From Planctomycetota bacterium (GTDB taxonomy: Bacteria; Planctomycetota; UBA1135; GCA-002748355): 53,916 nt of DNA. Every line of letters begins with the position of its first letter. The stretch's first letter is position 1. A program made the translations under genes and the position numbers. Of the stretch, positions 6,306-51,841 are shown in pieces. Where the stretch lies: NCBI GenBank assembly GCA_002685965.1, contig NYZE01000053.1, forward strand, positions 1 through 53,916, read 5' to 3'. The notes below the pieces were generated by a model, which saw only the letters and a list, made by a program, of their open reading frames with translations, did no database searches and was not told the DNA's origin.

Positions 6306-7799
6306 CTACAAGTAGTTCATGAGAGTGCCAACGCTGCGAACAACAACGTCGGCGTCGACATCGGCGAACTCGTAGTCGCTTCGAGTGGTTTCGCCCGACA
6401 GGACGAGAACCGAGGTCAGGCGTGGGTCTGCACCGAGCGCGATGTCGGTGTAGAGGCGGTCGCCGATGACGACTGCGTCTTCTAGTGCGATCCCTGCGGC
6501 CTCGAGGACACCGGTGATGAAGTCGGGGTCCGGTTTGCCGAAGGTCCGCAGCGGCATCTGACCGGTGGTCATCTCGACGACCTTCATGAAGGTTCCGATG
6601 TCGGGCAGGTCGCCGTGCGGCGTCGGGCAGACGACGTCGAGATGCGTTGCGTAGTACGGGATGCCTGAGCGCACGAGCGAGGTCAGCTTCCCCAGCTTGG
6701 CAAAGGTCAGGTCCGTGTCGTACGTGAGCAGGCAAGCCTCGGGCGACTCTTCATCGAACTCGAAGCCCTCACTGCGGATGTAGTTCGACACCTCTTCGTT
6801 GGCGAGCCAATAGAGCCGCGTCAGCCTCTGCCGCTTCAAGTAGTGCAGCGCCGCTTGGATCGATACCAACACGTCGGCTTCTGAGACGTCGAAGCCGATG
6901 CGACGCAAGTTGCTGGCATGAGCGCCGGGGCTCCTCGAGGAGTTGTTGGTCAGAACGTAGACCTGTCGCCCCGTCGACTTGAGCCTCGAGAGGAAGCCCT
7001 CGGCCCCGTCGAGGATCGTGTCGGACAATGTCAGCGTGCCGTCGCGATCGACGAAGAAGACCTTCTTGTCGGCGAGCGAGGCGAGGCGCTCGTTGAACAT
7101 CAGCTCAGCTTCGGCCAAGTCGTCGTAGGTGTCGATCTCGTACCATCGGGCCTCGCCGATCTCACACGGCGTTGCCGTGAGCTCGCCGGAGCGGAACAGG
7201 TTGTCGAGCATGCGCTCGGTCCACTGGTTGCGATCGCCGCTGCCAATGATCCGTTCGAGTTCACCGACGACCCGGGTCAGGCCGACCGCATCGAGGCGGT
7301 AGGCATCGGTCGAGCGGCCCCACGACTCGGTGGCGCCGTATGTCTTCGAGATCCCGGAGATGCGGCCGTCCTCGACGAGCACCTTCATCGACTCCTCGTC
7401 CCAGGTGCCGCGATCGACGGCGACCGCCGAGCCTGTCATGGCGGCCAGGCCGGCGATCAGGTCGCTATCGAAGACAACGTCACCGTTCATCAGCAAGACG
7501 TCGCCCGTGAGGTGTTCGCGGGCGAGCCACAGGCTGAACATGTTGTTGGTCGAATCGTACTCGTTGTTGACGACGAAGGAGATGTCGAGGTTGGGGTGAG
7601 CGGTTGCGCAGTAATCGCGCACTTGCTCGGCGCGATAGCCGACCACGATCGCGACCTCTGTGATGCCGTTGCCGGCGAGCGCGTCGAGCAAGTGGCCGAG
7701 GATCGGCTTGCCAACGACCCTTACGAGCGTCTTGGGCTTGTCGTCGGTGATCGGCCGCAGGCGCGAGCCGACGCCGGCCGCGAGGATGATTGCTTTCAT
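6306..7799 (-). CDS. Sugar/polyol-phosphate nucleotidyltransferase fused to HAD-IIA phosphatase
   Basis: 497 aa from the ATG at 7799; the track start at 8051 lies inside the preceding gene. Residues 1-240 are a nucleotidyltransferase (AAGVGSRLRPITDDKPK, the GxGxRLxPxT...PK signature) of the LicC/RfbA-like type. Residues about 250-497 are a NagD-like HAD phosphatase: motif I DRDGTL, motif II TNNSS, motif III lysine in GKPDPDF, motif IV GDRLYTDI. The ATG overlaps the stop of the gpsA-like gene by 4 bp, so the two are translationally coupled. A dehydrogenase plus nucleotidyltransferase plus phosphatase would suit making a nucleotide-activated glycerol-type unit for surface glycan. The nucleotide and acceptor cannot be told from the sequence. 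Confidence 0.82.
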   Translation of the reverse strand: MKAIILAAGVGSRLRPITDDKPKTLVRVVGKPILGHLLDALAGNGITEVAIVVGYRAEQVRDYCATAHPNLDISFVVNNEYDSTNNMFSLWLAREHLTGDVLLMNGDVVFDSDLIAGLAAMTGSAVAVDRGTWDEESMKVLVEDGRISGISKTYGATESWGRSTDAYRLDAVGLTRVVGELERIIGSGDRNQWTERMLDNLFRSGELTATPCEIGEARWYEIDTYDDLAEAELMFNERLASLADKKVFFVDRDGTLTLSDTILDGAEGFLSRLKSTGRQVYVLTNNSSRSPGAHASNLRRIGFDVSEADVLVSIQAALHYLKRQRLTRLYWLANEEVSNYIRSEGFEFDEESPEACLLTYDTDLTFAKLGKLTSLVRSGIPYYATHLDVVCPTPHGDLPDIGTFMKVVEMTTGQMPLRTFGKPDPDFITGVLEAAGIALEDAVVIGDRLYTDIALGADPRLTSVLVLSGETTRSDYEFADVDADVVVRSVGTLMNYL

Positions 7800-8821
7800 C
7801 GTGTTTGATTGACCAACAACTGGCTGTTGAAGGTCGGGAGGTCGGTGCAGCCGGCGACGAAGTCGAACAATGCCGACAGGCGCGGATACTGATCCAGGTC
7901 GCCGACGCGACCGAGTGCCTTGATGGTGTTGACGCCTTCGACCGTCTTGCGCCCTTCGGTCATGACTTCGATGGCCTTGGCCAGAGTGAGGCCACGGCCG
8001 AGCAGGATCCCGAACTCTCGGTTGCGCGTGTTCCCGGTGCACGACAGCCACATGTCATTGCCCCACGCCTGGCTGCCGATCGTGAAGGTGGCCGGTTGCG
8101 CACCGAGTCGACTGACGGCCAGCTCTTCGACCTCCGCCGCCAGACGCGAGATCGTGTACGTCTGTGCACCGTGGGAAAGACCGGCGCCACTGGCGATACC
8201 AGCGCCGATCGCGACGACGCTCTTGAAAGCGGAAGCGCATTCCACGCCGACAAGGTCGTCGGTCGGGTAGATGAACAAGCGTGGAGATTGCAGTAGCTGT
8301 TGTAGCTCGCTGCGCATCTCGGCGTTGGCGCAGGCGAGGCTCGCGCCGAGCGGTTCGGCACCTATCAGATCGCTGGCGATCGTGCCGCCTGCGAGTAGCG
8401 CGTAGCTGGCCAGCTTGGAGCCAAGGGTCTCCTGCACGACAGAGGACAAGGGCTGGCCGGTCTCGTGGTCCAGGGCCTTGGCCGTGTTGAGCACGGCGAT
8501 CGGACGCGCTAGCCGCGGCGCGATGCTCGCCAGCACTTCGCGTGTTGCGTTCGACTCGACGGCGAGGATCAAGAGGTCGGCGTCGCGAATGGCATCGATG
8601 TTCGGCTCGACGGCGATCTCGTGGCTGATGCAGGTGCCGGAGTGGTGCCACGGGTGGTGACGATCGGCGTTCAGGCCGGCGCGGACCTCGGCGTTGCGGT
8701 CGAAGGCCCGGATCCTCCATGCGTCCGACGGCAGCTGTTCGCCGAGGTGCTTGAGCAGGGCAAAGCCGAAGTTTCCGACCCCGTAGAGAAACGCTGTCTT
8801 TGTTGCTTGTGCGACCTGCAT
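7796..8821 (-). CDS. gpsA: Glycerol-3-phosphate dehydrogenase (NAD(P)+)-like protein
   Basis: 341 aa from the ATG at 8821, chosen because GGGAG lies 6 nt upstream and the NAD-binding strand (FLYGVGNFGF, GxGxxG) follows directly. The track start at 8917 would add 32 unlikely residues. Lysines expected in this family are present (NTAKALDHETG and ECASAFKSVVAIGAG). The family reduces dihydroxyacetone phosphate to sn-glycerol-3-phosphate. Because it is coupled to the nucleotidyltransferase-HAD gene, this copy may serve surface-glycan synthesis rather than lipid synthesis, and could act on a related ketose phosphate. Divergent from the TPR gene at 8960. Confidence 0.82.
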   Translation of the reverse strand: MQVAQATKTAFLYGVGNFGFALLKHLGEQLPSDAWRIRAFDRNAEVRAGLNADRHHPWHHSGTCISHEIAVEPNIDAIRDADLLILAVESNATREVLASIAPRLARPIAVLNTAKALDHETGQPLSSVVQETLGSKLASYALLAGGTIASDLIGAEPLGASLACANAEMRSELQQLLQSPRLFIYPTDDLVGVECASAFKSVVAIGAGIASGAGLSHGAQTYTISRLAAEVEELAVSRLGAQPATFTIGSQAWGNDMWLSCTGNTRNREFGILLGRGLTLAKAIEVMTEGRKTVEGVNTIKALGRVGDLDQYPRLSALFDFVAGCTDLPTFNSQLLVNQTR

Positions 8822-8959
8822 GGCTGCTCCCGGTGCGAACGTGCGCCCCGATCCTCCCCTTGCATCGGCATTTAGGCGTAGCGGCGTGAAGCGGTGGGCC
8901 GGGATTCGGCTCATCACCGGTGGGCCGAGCAGCCGAAGAGAGTTCTGTTAGGAGAAGCC

Positions 8960-9715: not shown

Positions 9716-9747
9716 AGCCGTTCCTGGATTCGCTCGAGAACGGGGTG

Positions 9748-10698
9748 ATGCCTGCCCCCGATGTCGTCGTCCTGGTTCTGCAATGGGGCCACGCTGACGA
9801 AACCGTGCGCTGCCTGCGCGCGCTCCGCGCTTCGCAAGGGGTGCGCTTCGAGGCCATCGTCATCGATAACGCTTCGTCTGATGCCGGTGCGGCCGACAAA
9901 GTGCGACATGCGCATCCTTGGGTAGAGGTCGTCGAGAACGAACACAACCTGGGGTTCGCTGGCGGCAACAACGTCGGGTTGCGCCGCCTGGTCAAGGCGC
10001 GCGCGACCGGCGCCTCGCCGCGTTGGTGTCTCTTGCTCAACAACGACGTCGAACTCACGCAGGACTGCCTAGCGGAGATGGTCGCGGTCGCCCAGGCCAA
10101 GCATGCTGGCGCGGTCGGCGCGCTCAACTTCGAGCGCGAGAGCGGTGCGATAGCGTCTTCGGGCGGTTTCATGCAGTGGCCATCAGGTACCTATCGCGAC
10201 GCCGGGCGTAGCGCTGCGATGCTCGGTGTGCCGCACGAAGTCGAGACCATCGCCGGATCGACCCTGCTGCTCGACCTCGACGCCCTCGTCGGTGTCGGCG
10301 TGCTCGATCCGGACTACTTCTGCGTCTATGAGGAAACCGATCTGTGCCTGCGCCTGGGTGCCGCGGGTCGTCGCCTCTGGCTCGTGCCCGCGGCCCACGC
10401 GCTCCACGCCGTCGGCGCAAGCACGTCCCGGCACATCCACCTCTACTTTCGCTTCCGCAACCGCTTCCGCTTCGTCCGCCGCTGGGGCGGGGCAGGTGCG
10501 GTGCGGCGTATGCTCCCCGGCCTCTGCTTCGAACTGCTCTGGCGGTTGCCGGTCTATACCGTGACGGGCCGACTGCGTGCCGCGACCAGTATCCTGCGCG
10601 GGGTGATGGACGGTATCAGGGGAGTCGTTGGGCACGGGCCGTTCGTTGCATCTGAGCCGCCGACGGACGACGGGCGCGTGCTACTCTCTAGCACGTGA
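9748..10698 (+). CDS. Family 2 glycosyltransferase (rhamnosyltransferase-like)
   Basis: 316 aa from the ATG at 9748; GTG codons at 9703 and 9745 are alternatives, while the track start at 9409 lies in the previous gene. GT-A fold: VVVLVLQWGHADET, the nucleotide-sugar region VIDNASSD, NLGFAGGNNVGL, and the metal-binding acidic motif LLNNDVEL. The order resembles WcaA/RfbN-type transferases that move sugars from nucleotide donors to lipid-linked glycans at the inner membrane. A hydrophobic C-terminal stretch suggests membrane association. Its TGA overlaps the GTG of the VWA gene. Donor and acceptor unknown. Confidence 0.85.
   Translation: MPAPDVVVLVLQWGHADETVRCLRALRASQGVRFEAIVIDNASSDAGAADKVRHAHPWVEVVENEHNLGFAGGNNVGLRRLVKARATGASPRWCLLLNNDVELTQDCLAEMVAVAQAKHAGAVGALNFERESGAIASSGGFMQWPSGTYRDAGRSAAMLGVPHEVETIAGSTLLLDLDALVGVGVLDPDYFCVYEETDLCLRLGAAGRRLWLVPAAHALHAVGASTSRHIHLYFRFRNRFRFVRRWGGAGAVRRMLPGLCFELLWRLPVYTVTGRLRAATSILRGVMDGIRGVVGHGPFVASEPPTDDGRVLLSST
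10682..10687 (+). promoter_or_regulatory. -10-like box before the VWA gene
   Basis: TACTCT ending 7 nt before the GTG at 10695, inside the end of the glycosyltransferase gene. No -35 seen. It follows the TANNNT spacing found at other SD-less starts in this window. Confidence 0.25.
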
Positions 10699-12355: not shown

Positions 12356-13348
12356 TCACGGGCGGATGGCCTGGAAGCGCTTCCGCTTCCGGATGGCGAG
12401 CGTCCTGCCGGCCTCTCCAGCGAGGGTCTTCCCGACGCTTTTCTCTACGACGGCCTTGGTGCTGCCGAGCGCCAGTAACGCGACTGCCGCCTCGCGGCGG
12501 ACGGTGCGGTTGCTTGTCGTGAGCAGTTGGGTGACCAACGGGCGAGCGGTGGCTGCGCCGGTGTCTGCGAGAAGGCGTGCGACGCGGATACGGGCGACGT
12601 CGTTGCGCAGGGCGGTGAGTGGGGCGGCGCGCAGTGTTGCGGCGACCGGGATCTCTTCGAGCAGGACGCGCGAAGCGAGCGGGGCAATGCCGTTGGCAGT
12701 GAGGTAGATGGCCCAGGCGACTCTGGCCGCGTGGTCTGGCGTGGTACGTGCGTCGGCGATGAGCAGGCCGACCAAGGCCGGTGAGGCGGTCTTCGCAGCG
12801 CTGTCGAGTGCGGCGCTAATGGCGGTCTTGGACCGTTGGTCCGCGGTCTCGAGACGAGGCAAGGTCGGTAGGGCCAGGGCCGCGTCCTCACGGACGCGGG
12901 GTGAAGCGTGTGCGAGCTGGTTGACGAGCAGGCCGATGCGGGCGGTGACGGCGGTCACTTTGACGAGTGCTCGGACTGCGTCGAGTGCGCCTCGATCGGT
13001 CATGACGATGCCACGGCCGCCGCCGCGCGTTGCCAGGCCGGAGCGGCGCTGATCGAGAAACAAGAGGACACGCTGGCCGCGCTTCAAGCCATGCAGGGCG
13101 CAGCCGCAGTGCCGATGTCCCGGCTCGACGAGGCGTGCCGCCGACGTCAGTGTCCCGCGTAGCACCTCGATCGGCGTGAACGTGACGGCCAGCGTCTCGT
13201 TGGCGAGCGCGACGTTCTCTATCGAAGCGTGCAGGATCAGCGGAGTAGACTTGGTCAAGCGCTCCAACGTCGTCGCCTGCTTCTGGCTTGCCAGTGGAGC
13301 AGTGACCAACAGCGTCAGGAAGAAAATACGCAACATGTTCTTATTCAC
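12356..13348 (-). CDS. Exported HEAT-like repeat protein
   Basis: 330 aa. GTG at 13348 overlaps the TGA of the 1006-aa gene by 4 bp; an in-frame ATG four codons later is an alternative. The signal peptide MLRIFFLTLLVTAPLAS is followed by QKQ. Residues about 30-125 resemble a small beta domain often found ahead of such repeats (LHASIENVALANETLAVTFT...RGQRVLLFL). Residues about 140-320 are alpha-helical with HEAT-like periodicity (VREDAALALPTL, LRNDVARIRVARLLADTG, VRREAAVALLALG). Probably periplasmic and expressed with the large Ig-like lipoprotein. Function unknown. Confidence 0.7.
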   Translation of the reverse strand: MNKNMLRIFFLTLLVTAPLASQKQATTLERLTKSTPLILHASIENVALANETLAVTFTPIEVLRGTLTSAARLVEPGHRHCGCALHGLKRGQRVLLFLDQRRSGLATRGGGRGIVMTDRGALDAVRALVKVTAVTARIGLLVNQLAHASPRVREDAALALPTLPRLETADQRSKTAISAALDSAAKTASPALVGLLIADARTTPDHAARVAWAIYLTANGIAPLASRVLLEEIPVAATLRAAPLTALRNDVARIRVARLLADTGAATARPLVTQLLTTSNRTVRREAAVALLALGSTKAVVEKSVGKTLAGEAGRTLAIRKRKRFQAIRP

Positions 13349-16300
13349 TTGAGCAGTACCGCTTCGCGGAGGTATGCGAGGTTGAGCGGCCGGAACGCAT
13401 ACTTGACCGACACCATGCTCTCGTAGCCGATAACGGCGCTCATGACGTCGGTGATCCCGGTCGAGGCGTTGTGCAAGGAGAGGTCTCCGTGCAGCCCGGC
13501 GCTCGGCATGCCCGGCGCCACGAGTCCGAGCGAGTGCCCGATCTCGTGCACGAGCACGATGCCCGTGACCTTGGCCAGGTCGTCCGCGGCCTTCATGATG
13601 GCGTTGTAGCGCACCCTCTCGTTCGGCGTGGCTTGGTTGTAGTTGAACGAAACGGCCAGTACGGTTGCATCGAGTGCGTGTGTTCCGGCCGGCGTGCCGC
13701 CCATGTGTGGTGACAGTCCACGGTAGGTGCGGCCGAAGATCGTCAGGTAGTGCGGGTAGAGGTCCAAGTAGAGGCGGGCCTGATACAGGAACAGCTCGCC
13801 GACAAACACGCCGAGTCCGGGCGACGTGCCGGCGTTGTTCTCGTTTGGCCTGGAGTTTCGATAGTCGAACAGCGCACGTCCGAGCACGCCCGTCGACGGG
13901 TCGCCGTAGCCGCGTCCCTGGCTGCCTTGTGGGTCCATGCCCCCGACCGCGATCTTCATGTGCGGGGCGCCGCAGGGTTTGCGCGTGACGAGACGCACAC
14001 TGACGCTGCCGTCCTTGCGTGCGCCGTTGGGAGCACGTCCGAACAGCTCGTTCGCGATGCGCAACACGCCGTCCGTGACCAGTTGGCGCATGCGTGCGTT
14101 GGTACCTACGGGGTCACCGGTGGCCATCAACCCGAGGTCGATCAGGTCCTCGTCGAAGTCGGCCTGTCCGTTGCCCTTGCCACCACGTTCGCGGTCAGAG
14201 TCGAACATGACGCGCACGATCTGCGTGCGTTCGAACGGTCGGACGTCAGGATTGGCGTCAGCTACCGTGAACTTGATCAGCTTCGTTTTGGCGAGGTTGC
14301 CGGACAGGTCCCGAATCGAAGCCGCCACGGTGTACTTGCCAGTAGCAAGTGCGTTGGCGTGGTCGATCTGCACCGAGGCCTGGCTCGCCGAGAAGGTCGT
14401 GAGCCCGAAGAGCGCCGCCGGCGTAGGCACGCTGCCCGGCCCGCTCAGTTGCACGAAGAGGCTGGTCGGGTCGACCGTGCTGCTGCCAGTGTCGAAGAAG
14501 GAGAGATCGATCGCGAAGCCGTAGGGCGGCACCACGAGCCCTTCGTTGCGCAGGGCGGAGATCTCGTTGACCGTCATCTTCAACTCGGGCGGGATCGAGT
14601 CGAAGTGGAAGCCTGTGCGGAAGGTCGACGTGGTCGCAGCGGTCGTCCAGTTCCCGTTTGCCAGACGCACTCCGCTCGCGCCGCCTCCGATGGTCACGCG
14701 GATCGTCTTGCCACCCGGTAGCGTGCCGCGCGGTTCGAACACGATGGCTCGGTTTCCCTTGTCGATCCTGAGGTCGCCCATCACGTGGTTGCCACCGACT
14801 TCCTTGACGGTGATGGACGTGTCCGTGACCGTTGTCGGGTCGACCGGGCCAGACGCGACGATTGCGATCTTGCTCGTCGATGCCACTGCGGCCGACGAGT
14901 CCATCGGCGAGATCCTGAAGACAGGGAGCTCGGCGGTAACGGATGTCGTGAACTCGAGCGTGAAGTCCTGTGCCATCGGGTTGCCGGCGCGATCGCGGAT
15001 GCCGTCGTAGCCGGACACGAGACGCAGCACGTAGTCCTCGCTCTGGGCCAACGTTGCTCCTGGTGTGACCAGGAGCTTGTTGCCGTCGTGCGAGATGGTC
15101 GGCGTGATGTAGACACTGCCACTGTCGCCGGTGAGCACGACGCTGACCCGCGACACGGTCGCGTTCTTGACCGGTTCGTTGAAGAAGAGCTCAAACTGCA
15201 CGTTGGGTGAGACCCGCACCGCGCCTGAACTCGGCACTGCGGTGGCGACGTTCGGGCCGGTCGTATCAAGACCGACGAAAAAACTCTTCGTGATCGATGT
15301 CGTCAGGCTGTTGCCGCTCACGTCGGTCAGGCCGGTGGCGCCACTGATGAACCGCACCGCGTAGGCCTGATGCGGAACCAGGGGCGCGGTCGGCATGAGC
15401 CGGACGACCTTCTTGTCACGCGAGGTCGACAGCGTGAATTCGATCGGGTTGTGGAAGGCGTTTTCGAGCACGAGGCCGGTCGGCTCGTAGCTGTCCGGGT
15501 CCATCGACTCGGAGAAGGTGTATTCCAGTCGGGCTCGTGGCGACACTCCTGATCCACCGTCACCGGGGTCGGACCCGGTGAGTGTCGGCGGCGTCGTGTC
15601 GGCGGCCGTCGTGAACTGCACGCTCCAGTTCTGTGCGAGTGGGTTGCCCGAGCGATCGCGCAGGCCGCTCGGGCCACCGCGTGCGCTGATCACGAACCGG
15701 CGCTCGCCGGGCAGATCCTGGTAGGGCGTGACTCCAATCGTGTCGCTGATCGAGGTGATGTCAGCCTCGAACGGCGTTCCCCAGATGTCCTTGATGGCCA
15801 CGGTCCCACTGTTGATCGATGTGGAGTCGAGGTCTTCGTCGAAGTTCAACGCGAAGCCGATGGTGCGAGTGACTCCGGTCTCGTTGTTCGAGACCGATGC
15901 CGACCTCAGCGTCGGGGGCACGTCGTCGAACGTGCGAAAGCGGAACGAGTAAGTCATGTCCAGCGTGCGGAATGACTTGTCGCACAACGTCGGCTGCAAC
16001 GTCAGTGTGTAGTCCGTCGCCTTTGCGAGGACATTCGCCGGCGTGAAGACGACCACTGTGTCGCCCTGCTTGGTCGTGAACGTGCCAGGGATGGGGGCGC
16101 CGGGGCCAACGGTCAGGCTGATGTCGTCCTCGTGCACCGACAGAGAATCGACCGGGCCGTCGAAGGAGATCTCGATCGTGGTGTCGACCGGCACCTGAAG
16201 GCCGTCGTCGCTTGGCGAATGCTCGATGATGCCGAGGTTGCCGATCCCGCCGCCGATGGACCCGCCGGCGCCTCCCGACTCGCCGCCCAATCCGCACGAG

Positions 16301-16365
16301 CAGACGGCCAGCAGCCCGACAAGTGCCGGGAAACGAAAGCCCGACCAAGACGAGTACGTCGCCAT
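13345..16365 (-). CDS. Large Ig-like (SbsA-type) lipoprotein with putative zinc-peptidase domain
   Basis: 1006 aa. The N-terminus is a lipoprotein signal (ALVGLLAVCSCG) followed by a Gly/Ser linker (GGESGGAGGSIGGGIGN). Residues about 50-620 contain roughly five SbsA-type Ig-like repeats, each with a DxSGNxL-like turn (LRDRSGNPLAQ, LTDVSGNSLTT, IRDRAGNPMAQ) and a closing FTT strand. The last about 300 residues hold an HExxHxxG motif near residue 938 (LVHEIGHSLGL), typical of metzincin-type zinc peptidases. The usual third ligand 11 residues on is not His, though an LHGD lies further downstream. Probably surface-exposed and adhesive or proteolytic. A terminator-like hairpin lies just before the start codon. 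Confidence 0.8.
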   Translation of the reverse strand: MATYSSWSGFRFPALVGLLAVCSCGLGGESGGAGGSIGGGIGNLGIIEHSPSDDGLQVPVDTTIEISFDGPVDSLSVHEDDISLTVGPGAPIPGTFTTKQGDTVVVFTPANVLAKATDYTLTLQPTLCDKSFRTLDMTYSFRFRTFDDVPPTLRSASVSNNETGVTRTIGFALNFDEDLDSTSINSGTVAIKDIWGTPFEADITSISDTIGVTPYQDLPGERRFVISARGGPSGLRDRSGNPLAQNWSVQFTTAADTTPPTLTGSDPGDGGSGVSPRARLEYTFSESMDPDSYEPTGLVLENAFHNPIEFTLSTSRDKKVVRLMPTAPLVPHQAYAVRFISGATGLTDVSGNSLTTSITKSFFVGLDTTGPNVATAVPSSGAVRVSPNVQFELFFNEPVKNATVSRVSVVLTGDSGSVYITPTISHDGNKLLVTPGATLAQSEDYVLRLVSGYDGIRDRAGNPMAQDFTLEFTTSVTAELPVFRISPMDSSAAVASTSKIAIVASGPVDPTTVTDTSITVKEVGGNHVMGDLRIDKGNRAIVFEPRGTLPGGKTIRVTIGGGASGVRLANGNWTTAATTSTFRTGFHFDSIPPELKMTVNEISALRNEGLVVPPYGFAIDLSFFDTGSSTVDPTSLFVQLSGPGSVPTPAALFGLTTFSASQASVQIDHANALATGKYTVAASIRDLSGNLAKTKLIKFTVADANPDVRPFERTQIVRVMFDSDRERGGKGNGQADFDEDLIDLGLMATGDPVGTNARMRQLVTDGVLRIANELFGRAPNGARKDGSVSVRLVTRKPCGAPHMKIAVGGMDPQGSQGRGYGDPSTGVLGRALFDYRNSRPNENNAGTSPGLGVFVGELFLYQARLYLDLYPHYLTIFGRTYRGLSPHMGGTPAGTHALDATVLAVSFNYNQATPNERVRYNAIMKAADDLAKVTGIVLVHEIGHSLGLVAPGMPSAGLHGDLSLHNASTGITDVMSAVIGYESMVSVKYAFRPLNLAYLREAVLLK

Positions 16366-16530: not shown

Positions 16531-17316
16531 TTAAATCCGACACTCGGGGCGGTCGAGTAGCGATGGCGTACTGACCTCGTGTTGCAGCGCAAGCCGGATC
16601 TCGGAGTCCAAGCCCAGGCGGGTCAGGGCCTTTCGTGCTGCCTCATGCGCCAGCTCGGGCGCGTTGTTGACCAAGGAGAGATGTGCCTGCCACAGCACTC
16701 TCAGTCTTGGGCTTGCGACTTGCTGCAGCAGGTGCGCTGCCTGCGCATTGGACAAGTGGCCGCGGCGGGAGGCGATACGGTCCTGAAGCTTCGGCTCGTA
16801 GGGTCCCTCGCGCAACATGCGCGGGTCGTAGTTGAACTCGAGGTACAGCAGGTCGAGGTCGCGTAGCATCTGGGTCAAGGCGCCACCCGTGCTGCCGAGA
16901 TCGGTAACGACGCCGATGCGCAGGCCGTCGCATTCAACGAGGTAGGCCATTGTCTCGGGAGCGTCGTGCGAGACTCGGGTCGGACTGAGGCGGAAGCCCG
17001 CGATGTCAAAGGGGCGTCCTGGGTAGACCCGTTCCAGTCGTGGAATCGAGCGCTGGTGTTCGGCCGTGCGCTCAGTGGCGTAGAGCGGCACGCCAGAGCG
17101 TCGTGCGATGCGCCCGGCGCTGCGCGTGTGATCGAGGTGTCGATGCGTCAGCACGACGCCAGCCAGCTCGCTCGTGGGTTGGCCAGCGGCGCGGAGTCGC
17201 TGTTGCATCGTTGCCCAGTTGAGCCCGGCATCGATCAGGATCGCTCCGGTGCTGTTGCGAATGAGCACGGAGTTGCCATGGCTGCCGGAGCCGAGTGGTT
17301 GGAACAAGAGACTCAC
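16531..17316 (-). CDS. WalJ/YycJ-like metallo-beta-lactamase-fold hydrolase
   Basis: 261 aa starting with GTG at 17316, which overlaps the TGA of the YfhO-like gene by 4 bp; the track start at 17604 lies within that gene. The N-terminus (VSLLFQPLGSGSHGNSVLI) and metal-binding motif HRHLDH (HxHxDH) place it in the metallo-beta-lactamase superfamily, closest by eye to YycJ/WalJ/VicX, which are thought to be exonucleases or phosphodiesterases. Further histidines (RVSHDAPE and GHLSN) are in plausible places. Cytoplasmic. Its position at the end of an envelope operon is reminiscent of walJ next to htrA-type genes in Firmicutes. Confidence 0.8.
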   Translation of the reverse strand: MSLLFQPLGSGSHGNSVLIRNSTGAILIDAGLNWATMQQRLRAAGQPTSELAGVVLTHRHLDHTRSAGRIARRSGVPLYATERTAEHQRSIPRLERVYPGRPFDIAGFRLSPTRVSHDAPETMAYLVECDGLRIGVVTDLGSTGGALTQMLRDLDLLYLEFNYDPRMLREGPYEPKLQDRIASRRGHLSNAQAAHLLQQVASPRLRVLWQAHLSLVNNAPELAHEAARKALTRLGLDSEIRLALQHEVSTPSLLDRPECRI

Positions 17317-19988
17317 GTAGGCGAACTCTCGCCGAAGGGCGTCTCCGTGTCCACGACGTGGGGATCGCGCCTGGTCTGGTGACCGTACCACCAGCAGAGC
17401 GCGATGATCAGGACCGCGGCCGAGAACGCTGTCAACAGCAGTCCGCGGATGAACGGCGAAGTGCTGTAGACGAAGCGCACGTCGTGTTTGCCAGGAGGAA
17501 TCCACAACGCGCGGAAGCACAGGTTGGCGCGGTGCCAGTCCGCCTTGTTGTCGTCGATGGTCGTGTGCCAGTGAGGCAGGGCCGTGTCGGTCAGCACGAG
17601 CCACGCGCCCGGACAGTCATCGATCAGCAGCCGTAGCTCGCTCGTTGTGTCCTCGAGGAAGCGCACCTTCGCCGCCGCGATCTTCGTTGGGTCTGCCATC
17701 GCGTCCAGGTGTGCGATGGCCGTGCTCGGTTGCAGCAGCACGCGCGCACGTGGGTCGAAGTCCTTCGCGATCAGTCGTTGCACGGCCGTGTCGTCGTCGC
17801 CGACCACCTCCGCTTCCGGCACGAGGAAAGCACGCGGCAGTGCCGTCTTGCGTTCGTAGATCCAGAAGCCACCGCTCGGACCGATCAGCGGCTTCGTCGC
17901 GGGCGGACCGAGCTTCGGGATCTCCTCGTTGCTCAACAGGTAGCGAATGCCGAACAGGTCGAACAGCCCGCGTTGCAGGCGGTCGTCGGCCGGCAGCGTG
18001 CGTACCCAGTACTCGCGCAGCATCTGACTCGGCCCGTAGAGCTCGCGGAATGGGCGCCAGCTACGTTTGTCGACCCACTGGTAGCAGTTGAGGTCGCGGA
18101 TGCCCTCGGGGATGAGGAGGTTCGGCGGGAGTGCGGTCGGGGCCGTCGGTGTGCTCCCGACGCGCGCGACCATGAAGCCCCCTGACTCACGGTGTGCGAC
18201 GCGCTGCTCGCGCAGGAAACGATGCACTGGCGTGTCCGGCTCGTTTCGGTGTGGGAAGCTCGGGTTGATGTGCCGAGCGCCGAGAACCAGTTCCAGCGCG
18301 GTGAGCCCGATCGCGAGCCATGGCAGCATGGTGCGCATGTTGCCGATGCGCCGGCTCTGCAGTAGCACCAGCCAGACGGTGATCGCTACGAAACAGAGCG
18401 CTGCGATGCCCGCCTGGTCCGACATGTGCTGCAGCGCGGGTACCGTCGTGCTGCCGAATAGCCCTTCGAGTGTCTTCGCATTGCCTGCGACGTCGGGATA
18501 AGAGGACATCCATCCCTTGGCGATGCCGTCGGTCATCCAGCGTATGGCGCCCGCGCCGTCGCTGGCGATGGAAGCCGTGTAGAGCCAGACCGCTGTGCAC
18601 GCGACCGCAAAGGCGCTCGGTACCGCGATCGCTACGCCGCGAAGTCGGCGCGTCAACGTCGGTGCGACTTCGAGTCCCATCGCGGCGAGGGCGGCGCCGA
18701 AGAAGCACACCGGCGCCATCATCCGGAAGGGTGAGGATGCTTGGAACGCCGGGAACCAGCCCACGAGACCGTAAGCGACGCCGCCCGTGGCCAGCGCCGC
18801 AAACAGCAGCAGCGCCGATACCGCAAAGTAGCGGAAGCGAACGGTCGGCCTGAACAACGCGAGGAACATGCACACGAGTGGCAGGCTGCCGAGCCAGATT
18901 GCGTACTCGGTGTAGTTGAAGTTGATCGGGAAGTGCAGCTTGCCGGTCGCCGGGTCGGCGCGCGACCAGAGCATGTGGATCAGCGGATTTTTCGAGTATG
19001 GCAGTTCCGGGCTTTCGATCCCGCTGCCGAACGGCGCTGACATGAAGAAACCGAGCAGGCCCGCGGGGTCGAATCCCTGCGCCGTCAGATTGGCGGTGGT
19101 TTGATTGAGATCGCGTTCCGTGTTGGGAAAGTGATCGAGCATCGGCACGAGTTGCACGGCGGCGAGACCGATCGCGCACAGGACGGCGCAGCCGAACCAG
19201 GCGCCGAGTGCTACTGCCGAGCCCGTGCCTTCCCCGCGCAGTGCGCGCAGCGCCAGCACGAGGACATAGAGGCCGAACGCGAACGAGATCGCGAGTGCGT
19301 ATGGCGGGAAGCCGCTCAGCCAGCACAAGCCGAGGCTCACTGCCAAGCCGCACAGGGCCGGAATGCGCGCCACGCCGCGCTGCTTGGAGAGACGCTCGAG
19401 TGCCCAGAACCCGGCCGGTAGCCAGAGCAGGGTCTCCATCCGCATGTAGAAGTGACCATTCGCCGCGAGCGTTCCCGACAGTTGGAACACGACCGCTCCA
19501 AACAACGCCGGTCCGATGCACAGGCCGATCTCGCGCAGAAAACCGAACATGAACACGCCCGCGAGCGTGAACGCGATCCACGCCACAAACCCGAAGGCTC
19601 GGTTCGGATCGAAGGCCAGGAAGAACCAGTGAAGGGGCTGTGCGAAGCCGCTGACCGCTGTTGCGAACAGTGGCGCGCCGGCGCGCACATAGGGATTCCA
19701 GTGTGGGAAGCGTCCCTCTTCGATCTCTGCGCGCGCGAGCCGATACTCGGGTGCGCACACCTGCGATTTTTCGGTGATGTCCCAGTTGCTACCGGCCTTG
19801 CGGTTGTCGATTTCCGCCTGGTCGAGCGCGCAGCTGAGCGGCGGAAAGGTCGTGCTGTCGAAGGGCAAGTAGTCGAAGCCCCGGAACAACGGCTCCCACA
19901 GCAGCACGGCGGGCAGCGCAACGAGCACGAGTAGTGCAAGGAGTGTGGCGCGGCGGCGTGGTCCGCTGCTCGGTAGTCGTGGCTTCAT
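17313..19988 (-). CDS. YfhO-family polytopic membrane protein (second copy)
   Basis: 891 aa. The start ATG overlaps the stop of the first YfhO-like gene by 4 bp. An N-terminal TM (LLALLVLVALPAVLLW) is followed by FRGFDYLPFDS and then about a dozen hydrophobic segments up to residue about 550. A soluble periplasmic region comes next, and the protein ends with a TM. The motif FPHWNPYVRAGAPLFA is typical of YfhO proteins, which are GT-C-like and have been linked to glycosylation of cell-wall polymers. It is paired with a 841-aa relative, suggesting either different acceptors or a heterodimer. No catalytic residue can be assigned with confidence. Confidence 0.78.
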   Translation of the reverse strand: MKPRLPSSGPRRRATLLALLVLVALPAVLLWEPLFRGFDYLPFDSTTFPPLSCALDQAEIDNRKAGSNWDITEKSQVCAPEYRLARAEIEEGRFPHWNPYVRAGAPLFATAVSGFAQPLHWFFLAFDPNRAFGFVAWIAFTLAGVFMFGFLREIGLCIGPALFGAVVFQLSGTLAANGHFYMRMETLLWLPAGFWALERLSKQRGVARIPALCGLAVSLGLCWLSGFPPYALAISFAFGLYVLVLALRALRGEGTGSAVALGAWFGCAVLCAIGLAAVQLVPMLDHFPNTERDLNQTTANLTAQGFDPAGLLGFFMSAPFGSGIESPELPYSKNPLIHMLWSRADPATGKLHFPINFNYTEYAIWLGSLPLVCMFLALFRPTVRFRYFAVSALLLFAALATGGVAYGLVGWFPAFQASSPFRMMAPVCFFGAALAAMGLEVAPTLTRRLRGVAIAVPSAFAVACTAVWLYTASIASDGAGAIRWMTDGIAKGWMSSYPDVAGNAKTLEGLFGSTTVPALQHMSDQAGIAALCFVAITVWLVLLQSRRIGNMRTMLPWLAIGLTALELVLGARHINPSFPHRNEPDTPVHRFLREQRVAHRESGGFMVARVGSTPTAPTALPPNLLIPEGIRDLNCYQWVDKRSWRPFRELYGPSQMLREYWVRTLPADDRLQRGLFDLFGIRYLLSNEEIPKLGPPATKPLIGPSGGFWIYERKTALPRAFLVPEAEVVGDDDTAVQRLIAKDFDPRARVLLQPSTAIAHLDAMADPTKIAAAKVRFLEDTTSELRLLIDDCPGAWLVLTDTALPHWHTTIDDNKADWHRANLCFRALWIPPGKHDVRFVYSTSPFIRGLLLTAFSAAVLIIALCWWYGHQTRRDPHVVDTETPFGESSPT

Positions 19989-22510
19989 GCGCGCTGCCGC
20001 CGACCGGCGAGCACGAGGATGACAAGCGCGATGAGCGACGCCAGCGACACGACGCAGCCGAACATGAACGAGCGCGGTGCGTAACGCAACACCACGTCGG
20101 CGCCCTTACCCGAGGGCACCAGTGCGGCCTGCAGGGCGCCGAAGGCAGGCACGATGTCTCGCCACTCTCCGTCATTGACGCGGTAGCTCCAACCTGGAGC
20201 CCAGGCTTGCGAAACGAACAGGACCGTCGGCGCTTTGCTCGTGTAGCGCAGCCGCACGCTCGATGCCCGCCACTCCACGACCTCGACCCGCGCATTCGGA
20301 TCAGGCGCGACGCTGGCCGTCGCTTCGTCGGTCAAAGACGTCAGACACCCTTGACCGGCGAACACCTCGTCGAGGACGGTGGCCACTTCTTGTCGTGCGG
20401 CCGGACTGTCGTGGTCCCAGATGCGGTGGAGCGCTTGCTCGTAGCGTGCCGTCAGATCCGGCGACGCCACGGTTCCGAAGAGGCGGACGAGGGGTGCGGG
20501 TTCGTTCGCGAGCCAGAAGCCCGGCTGCCCCGCTGTTCGCCAGTCGGGGCCGGGCGACTCCCGAGCGACCAAGGCCTGTGCCGCTACCAGGGGCAACAGC
20601 GGCGAAGCCAGGCTCTTCGGATCGAAGAGTCCGGCAACACCGGCGCCGCGCGAGGCGCTCTTGGCGTCGATGGCGTGGAAGAACTGCTCCATGCGCAGCA
20701 GTTGCAGGGGGCCGTAGCCGCATGCGTCGGCGCCCCCGAGCACAAGCGGCAGGTTCGGTGGCAGAGAGCGAACATCCCTGGCCGAGGTCGCTTCAGGATC
20801 GAGCCGGATCAGGCGGGCCGGGGCACCGTTCTTTGGTTGTGGCACCGGGAGCTCGACATCCAACGAAGCGAGCGCAGGTGCCGGGGTCGCCTGCCATGCG
20901 ATCGGCAGCATCTGCATCGCGCCCGCAACCAGGAAGGCGAGCAAGGGTGCGCGCCGTCCAAATGCTGCGCCGGTTACGAGCGCGGCACCGAGGCAGCCGA
21001 GGCCGATGACCAGCAACGCTTGGTTCGCGGCGAGTTCACCGCTCGCGAAGTTCTCGCTTGCCGTTCCCGCGGGAAGGCCCCACCGGCGATCCTGGACTCC
21101 AGCTGCCCATGTGGCGAAGTCCGCTTCCCCGGTTGTGAGCAGCAACAGGGCGAACCCGGCGATGGTCGCGCCGATTACGAGCGTGGCGACGCGAGTCGAT
21201 CGATTCGGTTCGCGAAAGCCGAGGCCGGCGAGGATCGGCAGGCACAGCGCCGGCACGAGCAGCAACCTGCGGAAGTCACCGACGCGCGCGCCTGGCAACA
21301 AGGATGCGATGTCGATCAGACCGGGAGTCGCGACGGCAGCGAGCAACGCGAGCAAGCTAGCGCTGCCGAGGAACCAAACGCCGACCCGCACCTTCTCGTC
21401 GCGCAATCGCCTCAGTGCTCCGATCGCGAACAGCAACGCCCACGCTCCCATGCCCACCGCGGTCTCGGTGTGGTTGAAAGTGCCGGCGCTGAGCGGCCCC
21501 CGGCGTTCCATCGGCACGAGCAGCAGTGAGAGCCAGGTGGGGCGCGGATTGTCTGGCCCACGCGGGGTCATGTCACCGGGCGCCGCGAGCTGGCTCGGCA
21601 ACAACAGATCGAGCCAATGCGTCGGCGACAGGGCGGACGCGCGCAGCGCCTCCAGCGTGGCTGGCGTTCGCGACGCGAGTTGCGACAGCTCGAGTGTCGG
21701 CGCCAGCTGTAACGCTGCCAGCGTAGTACCGAGACCGAGTCCGAGCGGTATGAGCAGGGCAGGCTTCCATGCGACGCCACGCCCAGCGACCCTGTCCTCG
21801 AGGAGCAGGAGCGCCGTGAATCCGAGCACCAGGTAGCCGAGCAACACGCTGGCCTGCGCGAAACCCGCAAGCCATGACAGGCACGTGCAGATGGTCAAGC
21901 ATGCCATTGGCAGGATCCGCGTTGCGCCGCCCGGTCGGAGCAGCGCGTGCGACGCCTCGAGTGCCGGCAGGATCCAGAGTGCGGCGAAGAAGATCATCGG
22001 ATGGTGCACGTGCGCGCTTGCCCAACTCGACAGCACGAGCGTGCCGTTGGCGAACAACGAGCCGGCCTCGGTCGCCCCGAGGCGTCGCGCCAGCCGGTAG
22101 GCGAACAGTCCAGCGAGTACCAGGTGGAGCAAGTAGCTCCACGCGTAGACCCCGGCCGGGTTGAACAGCGCGAACGCGATCGCGGTCGGATAGAAGGCAC
22201 GCGAAGTCGCCTGCGCGAGCAAGGGCATGCCGCACGACATTCGCGGCTCCCAGAGAGGCACTTCTCCCCGCGCCCACGACTCGCCGACGGCCGTGTCGTA
22301 GGGCAGGAACTGCAGCACCTTGTCGCGCCGGTGCGGAACGGTTGCGGCGTCGATGGCACGGCGTTCGTCCTCGGTCAGCGCGTTAGTGAGCGGCGCGAAA
22401 CCGCGAACGTCTTGCGGCAACAGCGCGTAGCCGGGCACGAGGGCCTTGCCGAGACAGCAGAGGCCGAGAGCAAGAGCGAGGAAGATGGCGCGCGTCTGGC
22501 GCAGCTGCAT
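19985..22510 (-). CDS. YfhO-family polytopic membrane protein (first copy)
   Basis: 841 aa starting 9 bp after the HtrA stop. Same architecture as its downstream neighbour: an N-terminal TM, a periplasmic loop with VPLWEPRMSCGMPLLAQ (the counterpart of the other copy's WNPYVRAGAPLF), about 12 TM segments to residue about 550, a soluble region, then a final TM (FMFGCVVSLASLIALVILVLAG). The overall similarity looks distant, so this is an old duplication. GT-C-like transferase activity with a lipid-linked sugar donor is the family-based guess. Confidence 0.78.
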   Translation of the reverse strand: MQLRQTRAIFLALALGLCCLGKALVPGYALLPQDVRGFAPLTNALTEDERRAIDAATVPHRRDKVLQFLPYDTAVGESWARGEVPLWEPRMSCGMPLLAQATSRAFYPTAIAFALFNPAGVYAWSYLLHLVLAGLFAYRLARRLGATEAGSLFANGTLVLSSWASAHVHHPMIFFAALWILPALEASHALLRPGGATRILPMACLTICTCLSWLAGFAQASVLLGYLVLGFTALLLLEDRVAGRGVAWKPALLIPLGLGLGTTLAALQLAPTLELSQLASRTPATLEALRASALSPTHWLDLLLPSQLAAPGDMTPRGPDNPRPTWLSLLLVPMERRGPLSAGTFNHTETAVGMGAWALLFAIGALRRLRDEKVRVGVWFLGSASLLALLAAVATPGLIDIASLLPGARVGDFRRLLLVPALCLPILAGLGFREPNRSTRVATLVIGATIAGFALLLLTTGEADFATWAAGVQDRRWGLPAGTASENFASGELAANQALLVIGLGCLGAALVTGAAFGRRAPLLAFLVAGAMQMLPIAWQATPAPALASLDVELPVPQPKNGAPARLIRLDPEATSARDVRSLPPNLPLVLGGADACGYGPLQLLRMEQFFHAIDAKSASRGAGVAGLFDPKSLASPLLPLVAAQALVARESPGPDWRTAGQPGFWLANEPAPLVRLFGTVASPDLTARYEQALHRIWDHDSPAARQEVATVLDEVFAGQGCLTSLTDEATASVAPDPNARVEVVEWRASSVRLRYTSKAPTVLFVSQAWAPGWSYRVNDGEWRDIVPAFGALQAALVPSGKGADVVLRYAPRSFMFGCVVSLASLIALVILVLAGRRQRA

Positions 22511-49166: not shown

Positions 49167-49592
49167 TTACCGCACCGCCGTCACCATGATCTCTACGAGG
49201 GCGTCCTTGGGTAGTCGGGCTGCTTGAACGGCGGCGCGGGCGGGCGGACCGTTCTTGAAGCGGGCGGCATAGATGCGGTTCATCGCTGCATAGTCGTTGA
49301 GGTCGGCGAGGAAGACGATCACTTGGACGACGTTGTCGAAGTCAGTGCCGGCGGCGGCGAGGACGGCTTCGATGTTGTAGAGGACGCGTTCGGTTTGGGC
49401 CTCGATACCCGTGGCCATCTTGCCGGTAGCGGGGTCGATGGCGATCTGGCCGGCGCACCAGACCGTGTTGCCGACGCGGATGGCCTGAGAATAGGGTCCA
49501 ATGGCGGCGGGAGCGCGGTCGGTCGAGATGACCTGCTTGGCGGGTGCTGCACAGGCACCGAGGCAGAGAACGAGAGCGAGAGCGAGCTTCAT
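49167..49592 (-). CDS. RidA-family enamine/imine deaminase, predicted lipoprotein
   Basis: 141 aa from the ATG at 49592, which overlaps the previous stop by 4 bp; the longer track start would bury the signal. The N-terminal MKLALALVLCLGACAAPAK is a clear lipoprotein signal (LGAC). The rest is a full YjgF/YER057c/UK114 (RidA) domain: APAAIGPYSQAIRVGNTVWCAGQIAIDPATG, ARFKNGPPARAAVQAARLPKDALVEI with the conserved Arg and Glu. Cytoplasmic RidA hydrolyses reactive 2-aminoacrylate-type enamines from PLP enzymes. An exported RidA beside an exported PLP enzyme suggests the same task in the periplasm. Confidence 0.88.
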   Translation of the reverse strand: MKLALALVLCLGACAAPAKQVISTDRAPAAIGPYSQAIRVGNTVWCAGQIAIDPATGKMATGIEAQTERVLYNIEAVLAAAGTDFDNVVQVIVFLADLNDYAAMNRIYAARFKNGPPARAAVQAARLPKDALVEIMVTAVR

Positions 49593-51841
49593 TTGGAGTC
49601 CTCGGTCTTCGATGGGGGTTTGCCGAGCAGGTATTGGCCGGGCCACCACTGATCGTCGTGTCCGTAGTCAGCCGCGGCGTGCAGCGTCAGGTAGGGGTTG
49701 CGCAAGTGTGGGCGCGCGAGTGCGCAGAGGTCGGCGCGGCCGGCGGCGAGAATCGTGTTGGCGTGGTCCGTGCCGAGGATCGCGCCGACCGCCATGACAG
49801 GAATGCCGACCTCGTAGCGGATCTGCTCGGCGAACGGAACCTGGAACATGCGGCCGTAGATGGGTTCTGAGGCTGTGACGTTGCCGGAGGACGAAACGTC
49901 GATCAGATCGAGTCCGTGCTCGTGCAACAAGCGCGCGACGATGACCGAGTCGTCAGCGGTCAGTCCACCGTCATCGTCGAGCCAGTCCGTTGCGGAGATG
50001 CGCACGGAGAGCGGCTTGGCTGCTGGCCACGTGCGCCGGACCGCGTCGAACACTTCGAGCGGGTAGCGCATGCGCGCTTCGATTTCGCCGCCGTATACGT
50101 CACGCCTCCGATTGGTCAACGGAGAGATGAAGTTGGACAGAAGATAGCCATGTGCCATGTGCAGCTCGACTAGGTCGAAGCCGCAGTCCTCGGCCATCTC
50201 GGTGGCCCGCACGAAGGCATCGCGCACGTCGTTCATGTCGGCGCGATCCATCTCCTTCGGTACCTGATGGCCGTCGGCGAAGGCGAGCGGCGATGGCGCC
50301 ATCGTTGGCCACGCCTCACTCGCGGGCAGCGGCACGTCCCACCCGTCCCACGGGTGCGAGCACGACCCCTTGCGCCCTGCGTGCGCGAGCTGCAAGCCGA
50401 TCTTTGCGGGCGTTTCGGTGTGCACGAAGTCGGTGATGCGCTTCCAGGCCGCGACGTGTGCCGTGTCGTACATGCCCGCGCAGGCTGGCGTGATGCGGCC
50501 GTTCGTCGTCACGTTGGTCATCTCGGTGAGCACGAGTGCGGCGCCGCCGATAGCGCGGCTGCCGAGGTGCACCAGATGCCAGTCGGTGACCGTTCCATCG
50601 ACCGCCGAGTACTGGCACATGGGTGATACGACCATGCGATTGGCGAGTTCGAGGTCGCGCAATCGGAACGGTGCAAAGATCGGCGCCGCCAACGGTGCCG
50701 TCCCCTCCTCTTCGGCGAACCTCTCGGTGACAAGTTCGACCAGCGCCGGGTCGCGTATGCCAAGGTTGTCGTAGGTGATCTGCTTGCTGCGCGACATCAA
50801 GTTGAACTTGAAGCGCACCGGGTCCTGGCCGAGATACCGGGCCGAGTTCTCGAACCACTCGAGACTCGTTTGTGCCGCCTTCTGCGTCTTGAGCACGTCG
50901 ACGAACCGTGCTTCTTCATAAGCCTGGAGCACGCGTGGCACGTCGGCCGTGCCCAGTTCCTTGAACGCCTCTGTCAGCGCGATCGCGTCCTCCATCGCCA
51001 GTTTCGTCCCGGAGCCGATCGAGAAGTGCGCGGTGTGCGCCGAGTCGCCCATCAACACCACGTTCTCGTGGTGCCAGGTCTTACACTTGACGGTTGGGAA
51101 CGACCGCCAAAGGGAGCGATTGGTCAGGAGATGCGCACCGTCGAGTTCCTCGGCGAATAGCGCTTCACACCATCGCGCAGATTCCTCCTCGTCCATCACG
51201 TCGAGGCCCGCCCGCTTCCACGCGTCTTCGCGACACTCGACGATCCACGTGGCGCGGCCCTCCTCGAACGGGTAGGCGTGCACCTGGAACAAGCCGTGCT
51301 CGGTCTCCTTGAAAATGAAGGTGAATGCGTCGAGCACCCGGTCCGACCCGAACCAAGCGAACTTGCACTTACGCATGTCGATGTGCGGGCGAAACGTCTC
51401 CTTGTAGCGGTCGCGCACGAGGGAGTTGTAGCCGTCACAACCGATCACGAGGTCGGCGTCACGCAGCGCTTCGAAGTCGGCGATCTCGCTGCCGAAGTGT
51501 AGATCCACACCGAGGGCGCGACAGCGGTCCTGCAGGATCAACAGGAGCTTCTTGCGCGATAGTCCACAGAAGCCGTGTCCGGTCGAGTGCGTGCACGTGC
51601 CACGGTAGAACGTGTTGATGCCCTGCCAATAGATGAAGTTATTGCGGATCTCGTTGAAGCTCTCCGGGTCGGCGCCTTCGAGGTTGTCGAGCGTCTCGTC
51701 CGAGAACACGACGCCCCAGCCGAAGGTGTCGTCGTGCTTGTTGCGTTCGTGCACGGTGACCTCAGCGTTAGGGAGCGCCTTCTTGATCAAGATTCCGAAG
51801 AAGAGCCCTGCGGGTCCGCCGCCGATCGAGATGATCCTCAT
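49589..51841 (-). CDS. 2-Aminobenzoyl-CoA monooxygenase/reductase- or salicylyl-CoA 5-hydroxylase-like fusion
   Basis: 750 aa. The N-terminal domain (1-380) is a group A FAD monooxygenase: GGGPAGLFFGILIKK (GxGxxG), the distal DG-type region LVIGCDGYNSLVRD, and GDSAHTAHFSIGSGTKLAMEDA. The second domain (388-745) is of the old yellow enzyme family: FAPFRLRDLELANRMVVSPMCQYSAVDG, HAGRKGSC and FGFDLVELHMAHGYLLSNFISPLTN. This order is that of 2-aminobenzoyl-CoA monooxygenase/reductase and of salicylyl-CoA 5-hydroxylase, both acting on aromatic CoA thioesters. The 4-bp overlaps on both sides couple it to a 73-aa gene and a RidA lipoprotein. No CoA ligase or other ring-degradation gene is visible, so the substrate is uncertain. 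Confidence 0.85.
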   Translation of the reverse strand: MRIISIGGGPAGLFFGILIKKALPNAEVTVHERNKHDDTFGWGVVFSDETLDNLEGADPESFNEIRNNFIYWQGINTFYRGTCTHSTGHGFCGLSRKKLLLILQDRCRALGVDLHFGSEIADFEALRDADLVIGCDGYNSLVRDRYKETFRPHIDMRKCKFAWFGSDRVLDAFTFIFKETEHGLFQVHAYPFEEGRATWIVECREDAWKRAGLDVMDEEESARWCEALFAEELDGAHLLTNRSLWRSFPTVKCKTWHHENVVLMGDSAHTAHFSIGSGTKLAMEDAIALTEAFKELGTADVPRVLQAYEEARFVDVLKTQKAAQTSLEWFENSARYLGQDPVRFKFNLMSRSKQITYDNLGIRDPALVELVTERFAEEEGTAPLAAPIFAPFRLRDLELANRMVVSPMCQYSAVDGTVTDWHLVHLGSRAIGGAALVLTEMTNVTTNGRITPACAGMYDTAHVAAWKRITDFVHTETPAKIGLQLAHAGRKGSCSHPWDGWDVPLPASEAWPTMAPSPLAFADGHQVPKEMDRADMNDVRDAFVRATEMAEDCGFDLVELHMAHGYLLSNFISPLTNRRRDVYGGEIEARMRYPLEVFDAVRRTWPAAKPLSVRISATDWLDDDGGLTADDSVIVARLLHEHGLDLIDVSSSGNVTASEPIYGRMFQVPFAEQIRYEVGIPVMAVGAILGTDHANTILAAGRADLCALARPHLRNPYLTLHAAADYGHDDQWWPGQYLLGKPPSKTEDSK

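Follow-up and report, generated by a model that had tools for sequence, protein, structure and literature searches.

Two overlapping genes in positions 1 to 53,916 of contig NYZE01000053.1 of a Planctomycetota bacterium (a stretch called the window here) probably direct the synthesis of CDP-glycerol or a closely related CDP-polyol, judging from sequence comparisons. One encodes a GpsA-like dehydrogenase, the other a LicC-type nucleotidyltransferase fused to a HAD-IIA phosphatase (Table 1). This reading is built on the structure of the two genes, their intact motifs, the placement of the dehydrogenase in a clade of its own, the recurrent pairing of such dehydrogenases with LicC-type transferases, and the CDP-alcohol neighbourhood of their relatives.

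Both reading frames are open, on the minus strand and where the original prediction had placed them, and the dehydrogenase gene overlaps the gene downstream of it. The dehydrogenase frame begins with ATG at 8821-8819, with a GGGAG run just upstream, and its TGA stop (7798-7796) shares an ATGA with the ATG (7799-7797) of the fusion gene, which ends at 6306; the two are presumed to be translationally coupled through this overlap. GC content at the third codon position is 0.79-0.80 in both genes, the same as in neighbouring genes, and, measured against the rest of the window, the pair has normal codon adaptation values of 0.66 and 0.71 (neighbours, 0.59-0.77), making contamination or a spurious reading frame unlikely. 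A consensus scan of the intergenic region (8822-8959) found neither a sigma-70-like promoter nor an intrinsic terminator.

Table 1. Features of the two-gene module and its immediate surroundings, in window coordinates.
Feature	Position	Strand	Basis or remark
Transferase-phosphatase fusion gene, 497 aa	6306..7799	-	LicC-type cytidylyltransferase (predicted) + HAD-IIA phosphatase
HAD-IIA phosphatase domain, residues 239-497	6306..7085	-	PDB match TM1742 (1vjr), catalytic motifs complete
LicC/COG1213-type nucleotidyltransferase domain, residues 1-238	7086..7799	-	LicC match, invariant residues, Asn105/Lys139 signature
ATGA overlap: dehydrogenase stop / fusion start	7796..7799	-	Sequence
GpsA-fold dehydrogenase gene, 341 aa	7796..8821	-	PF01210/PF07479 above cut-off
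Divergent intergenic region, module vs TPR/GT2 genes	8822..8959	.	
TPR-type gene	8894/8960-9715	opposite to module	Between module and GT2
GT2 glycosyltransferase, rhamnosyltransferase-like	about 9745-10698	+	Neighbour only

The dehydrogenase resembles GpsA in carrying both of its Pfam domains, NAD_Gly3P_dh_N (PF01210, 62.1 bits) and NAD_Gly3P_dh_C (PF07479, 79 bits), each above cut-off, and in retaining the catalytic set (K115, K200, D256, R266, and N267). The original prediction was to count as refuted if this were the only gpsA of the genome and complemented lipid synthesis; an ordinary copy is, however, present on contig C105, where PF01210 scores 136 bits and the window gene reaches 64. 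The window protein misses every NCBIfam GpsA cut-off (best score 172.7 bits, cut-off 257), and in a tree of 13 variant dehydrogenases and 47 ordinary GpsA proteins the two sets are split by a branch with SH-aLRT 100, so that it is not placed among the housekeeping proteins. A profile built from it and its 12 closest relatives gave 504 and 458 bits in two of 392 Planctomycetota genomes and at most 214 in the rest; within the class, this genome alone of 154 has the variant, which marks it as an accessory gene. Members of the variant clade come from Planctomycetota (Phycisphaerales), Patescibacteria, Poribacteria, and Thermoplasmata archaea, with 14 variant loci recovered from a scan of genome contigs using a two-row dehydrogenase alignment as query. 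Viral contigs gave no match to the dehydrogenase profile, and plasmid searches returned ordinary GpsA only.

The variant further differs from GpsA around its active site, as well as in its pairing with cytidylyltransferases (below). The conserved GP motif has become GG at residues 145-146, a two-residue insertion places an invariant Trp (W253) beside the active-site Asp, and the window protein has Ser201 directly after its second catalytic Lys, a place where Asn is almost invariant. The protein is predicted to reduce dihydroxyacetone phosphate (DHAP) or a close ketone phosphate; given the altered pocket (Ser201 and the inserted Trp), the substrate may not be DHAP itself.

The N-terminal domain of the fusion protein matches NTP_transf_3/NTP_transferase (Pfam, above cut-off, residues 1-128), and its closest PDB sequence is LicC (1jyk; E 6.4e-19 across residues 1-230). 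R13, K23, D107, E221, and D223 are invariant in 29 of 29 relatives, while T84, N86, and S89 correspond by spacing to T88, N90, and T93 of CpgD, residues that contact ribose and cytosine there (PMC13228409). The CTP and metal residues are kept as in CpgD and LicC, and CTP is the predicted substrate. The domain has the character of a LicC-type enzyme, a kind that works on CTP and a small alcohol phosphate, and not that of a typical sugar-1-phosphate transferase. In fold and in these residues (R13, K23, T84, N86, S89, D107, and E221) the domain is like LicC, PntC, and CpgD; it is unlike them in having Asn at position 105 in place of Glu or Asp, as well as in its fused phosphatase.

Position 105 bears on the choice of substrate, since its counterpart in Tde-PntC, Glu104 (LicC Asp105), sits near the substrate amine (PMC6697681); this equivalence comes from motif register and not from superposed structures, with the register taken from the metal Asp and another alignment; the HMMER alignment to LicC is off by one near 105. 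All the transferases that go with a glycerol-phosphate dehydrogenase or with Glyphos_transf have Asn at this position, part of a signature that also includes Lys139. Glu occupies it in PEP-mutase-linked rhizobial genes, three CDP-OH_P-linked genes, and one unassigned gene. The transferase tree places the window domain among PEP-mutase-linked and CDP-OH_P-linked relatives (support 99/96) and not with the other paired transferases; despite this grouping with Glu-type genes, Asn105 argues against an amine substrate.

That this transferase is fused to a HAD-IIA phosphatase, as originally proposed, is borne out by several lines of evidence. Pfam Hydrolase_6 (PF13344) and Hydrolase_like match residues 248-491, both above cut-off; the HAD-IIA subfamily model TIGR01460 gives 104.2 bits (cut-off 100.15); and HAD motifs I-IV are all present (D251xD253, T284, K422, and GD447xxxxD452). 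The nearest PDB entry is TM1742 (1vjr; E 5.7e-49), a stand-alone enzyme, unlike this one, but with all motifs in common and 36% identity. An AlphaFold model made with a 14-row alignment has two confident domains (mean pLDDT 92.8; 37.5 from the single sequence), and Foldseek likewise puts its C-terminal half on HAD-IIA phosphatases, TM1742 among them with a target TM-score of 0.93. The same search also returned the PntC-AEPT fusion, and a fold search against viral structures gave generic nucleotidyltransferase and glycosyltransferase folds only. The fusion is as unusual as had been supposed: no second transferase-phosphatase fusion was found in 294 genomes of the phylum, 154 of the order, or 72,556 plasmids, the last of which hold NTP and HAD genes separately, never fused; nor did the fusion protein alone match anything in the genome contigs scan. 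The HAD domain could be working on an intermediate of the pathway, could be moving a phosphate, as has been proposed for CDP-2-glycerol, or could be a by-stander.

Comparison of gene neighbourhoods, which the original prediction had suggested as a check, places relatives of the pair next to genes that use CDP-glycerol or CDP-alcohols. At 11 of the 14 variant loci the dehydrogenase has a LicC-type NTP gene no more than 1.5 kb away, against none of 57 ordinary gpsA loci. At the other loci the transferase precedes the dehydrogenase, often overlapping or nearly so; in the window this order is reversed. The paired transferases form three separate lineages (Phycisphaerales, Thermoplasmata, and the window), which implies more than one origin or rearrangement of the pairing. 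Among Thermoplasmata loci tested for the domain, the pair adjoins Glyphos_transf (PF04464, the CDP-glycerol glycerophosphotransferase family) in L082 and L086, and a CDP-alcohol phosphotransferase (PF01066, CDP-OH_P_transf) in L083 and L086. Related Planctomycetota transferases have both Fe-ADH_2 (the sn-glycerol-1-phosphate dehydrogenase family) and Glyphos_transf beside them at L028/L126 and L127, and Glyphos_transf only at L132, L137, L140, and L143, a set that includes the window's own order. The locus of the Phycisphaerales pair also holds glycosyltransferases and sulfotransferases.

In Planctomycetota family f44, Glyphos_transf, a LicC-type transferase, and Fe-ADH_2 form a cassette (L126:7549-10488 and L127:7142-10197), possibly a bacterial CDP-1-glycerol route. 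Within the window's order, a LicC-type transferase repeatedly adjoins a Glyphos_transf-like gene (L136-L140 and L143), with a response-regulator gene also adjoining it in L136, L138, L139, and L143; this set is likely a polyol-phosphate decoration cassette. In Planctomycetota family f20, a Glu105 LicC-type transferase adjoins a CDP-alcohol phosphotransferase (L021:121-828, L024:1-528, and L026:2492-3169), possibly as part of an amino-alcohol lipid head group route. Sulfotransferase-type genes recur beside modules in bacteria and one archaeon: L082:11063-11917, L075:11773-12714, and L078:8244-9239, for which PF13469 was confirmed, and L127:10353-11402 and L132:5228-6193, called by sequence similarity only.

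The original comparison with CDP-glycerol-type capsule building blocks stands in part. A glycerol-like CDP unit is favoured by the separate gpsA, the LicC-type transferase, and the neighbours of relatives, but a capsule role is not: neither Glyphos_transf (PF04464, TagF-like) nor LicD (PF04991) was detected in the genome (93% complete), so a CDP-glycerol user is either missing or unrecognised, and the window proteins scanned included no recognisable product of a polymerase, flippase, or capsule export gene. Only two PF01066 proteins turned up in the genome, both away from the module; these may be the usual phospholipid synthases. As the assembly is 93% complete and in 167 contigs, absence of a gene from it is not proof. 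The GT2 gene, said to lie divergently nearby, does lie on the opposite strand, with a TPR-type gene between it and the module. The window was rejected as a capsule locus, the neighbours of the module being ilvE, a MiaB-type enzyme, and VWA/HEAT, Big_5, and YfhO-type proteins, and any capsule link of the module is weak.

Other genes of the window include one at 13345-16365 for a 1006-aa protein with five Big_5 immunoglobulin-like domains, with a HEAT-repeat protein gene after it; two at 17313-22510 for large membrane proteins side by side, one YfhO-like and one weakly DUF7657-like; and one at 49589-51841 in which a FAD_binding_3 domain is fused to an NADH:flavin oxidoreductase (Oxidored_FMN) domain.

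In the route that we propose, the GpsA-like enzyme would reduce DHAP or a close ketone phosphate to a polyol phosphate, as its fold and catalytic residues suggest, apart from the housekeeping gpsA that serves lipids; the LicC-type domain would then join this to CTP, giving a CDP-polyol and pyrophosphate. In the third and most uncertain step, the fused HAD-IIA domain would dephosphorylate one of the pathway's small phospho-alcohols, perhaps the product once transfer has taken place, much as happens when inositol-phosphate osmolytes are made, or perhaps surplus glycerol phosphate; confidence in this specific role is low. The CDP-polyol would pass through a transferase to a surface glycan, a lipid head group, or a solute. 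We infer the substrates, products, phosphatase role, and end product of the module, and the neighbourhood arguments for the route are drawn from related loci rather than this genome. A broader proposal, and a doubtful one, is that bacteria and archaea share a new nucleotide-activation route: enzymes of a distinct GpsA-like clade would supply a polyol phosphate, perhaps one other than sn-glycerol-3-phosphate, to a LicC-type glycerol-phosphate cytidylyltransferase, and the phosphatase fused to it here would process an intermediate to an undescribed CDP-polyol or product.

The phosphatase domain could be a housekeeping HAD-IIA phosphatase, of the phosphoglycolate or glycerol-phosphate type, joined to the transferase by chance and with no part in the pathway. 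It is the only PF13344 match, and the sole HAD-IIA domain, found in the genome, and the genes nearest to it (48-51% identity), in other Planctomycetota, stand alone among unrelated neighbours, as this would predict; genomes of the same family, however, have no comparable HAD domain (E 1e-25), so that within the family it does not count as a conserved housekeeping gene, and the fusion is in frame and complete, with a short linker. On balance chance fusion seems unlikely. A CDP-2-glycerol route, in which the HAD domain moves or removes a phosphate and glycerol-2-phosphate is activated with CTP instead of sn-glycerol-3-phosphate, would account for the presence of a phosphatase fold on the transferase. 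The pneumococcal Gtp1-Gtp2-Gtp3 trio divides its labour alike, to go by annotations (gtp1, "putative glycerol-2-phosphate dehydrogenase"; gtp2, "putative nucleotidyl transferase"; gtp3, "putative phosphotransferase"; PMC3493582), but as three separate genes in a capsule locus. With no related HAD gene in the DNA around any of the 14 variant loci, such a route is quite unlikely here. Also improbable is synthesis of a compatible solute or other phosphodiester, in which a CDP-polyol is joined to another polyol phosphate and the phosphate left over is taken off by the HAD domain. The di-myo-inositol phosphate and diglycerol phosphate routes would naturally end with a phosphatase, IPCT-DIPPS shares the NTP fold of the transferase domain, and relatives of that domain adjoin CDP-alcohol phosphotransferases; set against this, searches of the genome gave just two PF01066 proteins, neither close to the module and both perhaps committed to phospholipids.

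The substrate would be a different one altogether, aminoethylphosphonate (AEP) or phosphocholine, if the NTP domain worked in the manner of PntC or LicC. Its nearest full-domain relatives (39-41% identity) are rhizobial plasmid genes adjoining PEP mutase, and the tree agrees; its Asn105, however, is neither Glu nor Asp, and it has the EExMKV motif of the polyol-context group rather than the PntC-like one. No PEP mutase gene is among the neighbouring genes in the window, and the genome gave a single PF13714 match, a weak one of 61 bits, in a 445-aa frame that lies on a different contig and would fit an isocitrate-lyase-type protein. We know of no role for a GpsA-like dehydrogenase in AEP or choline routes. 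Amino-alcohol or phosphonate activation is accordingly very improbable, and a link to PEP mutase was rejected on Asn105 and the weak PF13714 match. The preferred reading, synthesis of CDP-glycerol or a related CDP-polyol, has points against it as well: the undetected CDP-glycerol user, the clustering of the NTP domain outside the other paired transferases, the reversed gene order, the lack of a HAD gene among relatives of the pair, and a dehydrogenase pocket altered enough that DHAP may not be its substrate.

COG1213 enzymes are reported to use phosphocholine, AEP, phosphoglutamine, inositol-1-phosphate, and, recently, phosphoglycerate (PMC12275187, PMC6697681); glycerol phosphate is not among the substrates reported in these studies, and a LicC-type enzyme for it would extend the family by a close step. 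The glycerol-phosphate cytidylyltransferases known so far resemble TagD, apart from one that resembles FAD synthetase (PMC8262930). The reaction predicted for the window transferase, glycerol phosphate and CTP to CDP-glycerol, is that of TagD and Cps3B, but the transferase belongs to an unrelated fold family and lacks the HxGH and RTxGISTT motifs of TagD-type enzymes.

If the proposal is correct, there would be a third, LicC-type route to CDP-glycerol, with a dedicated dehydrogenase, beside the TagD-like and FAD-synthetase-like ones. With transferase and phosphatase on a single chain, what the phosphatase does could be tested directly, and annotators would have a means of separating the variant dehydrogenases from housekeeping GpsA, for which they are readily mistaken. 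CDP-glycerol supplies teichoic-acid-like polymers, and glycerol-phosphate decoration would become predictable in phyla so far not suspected of it, Thermoplasmata archaea and Planctomycetota among them.
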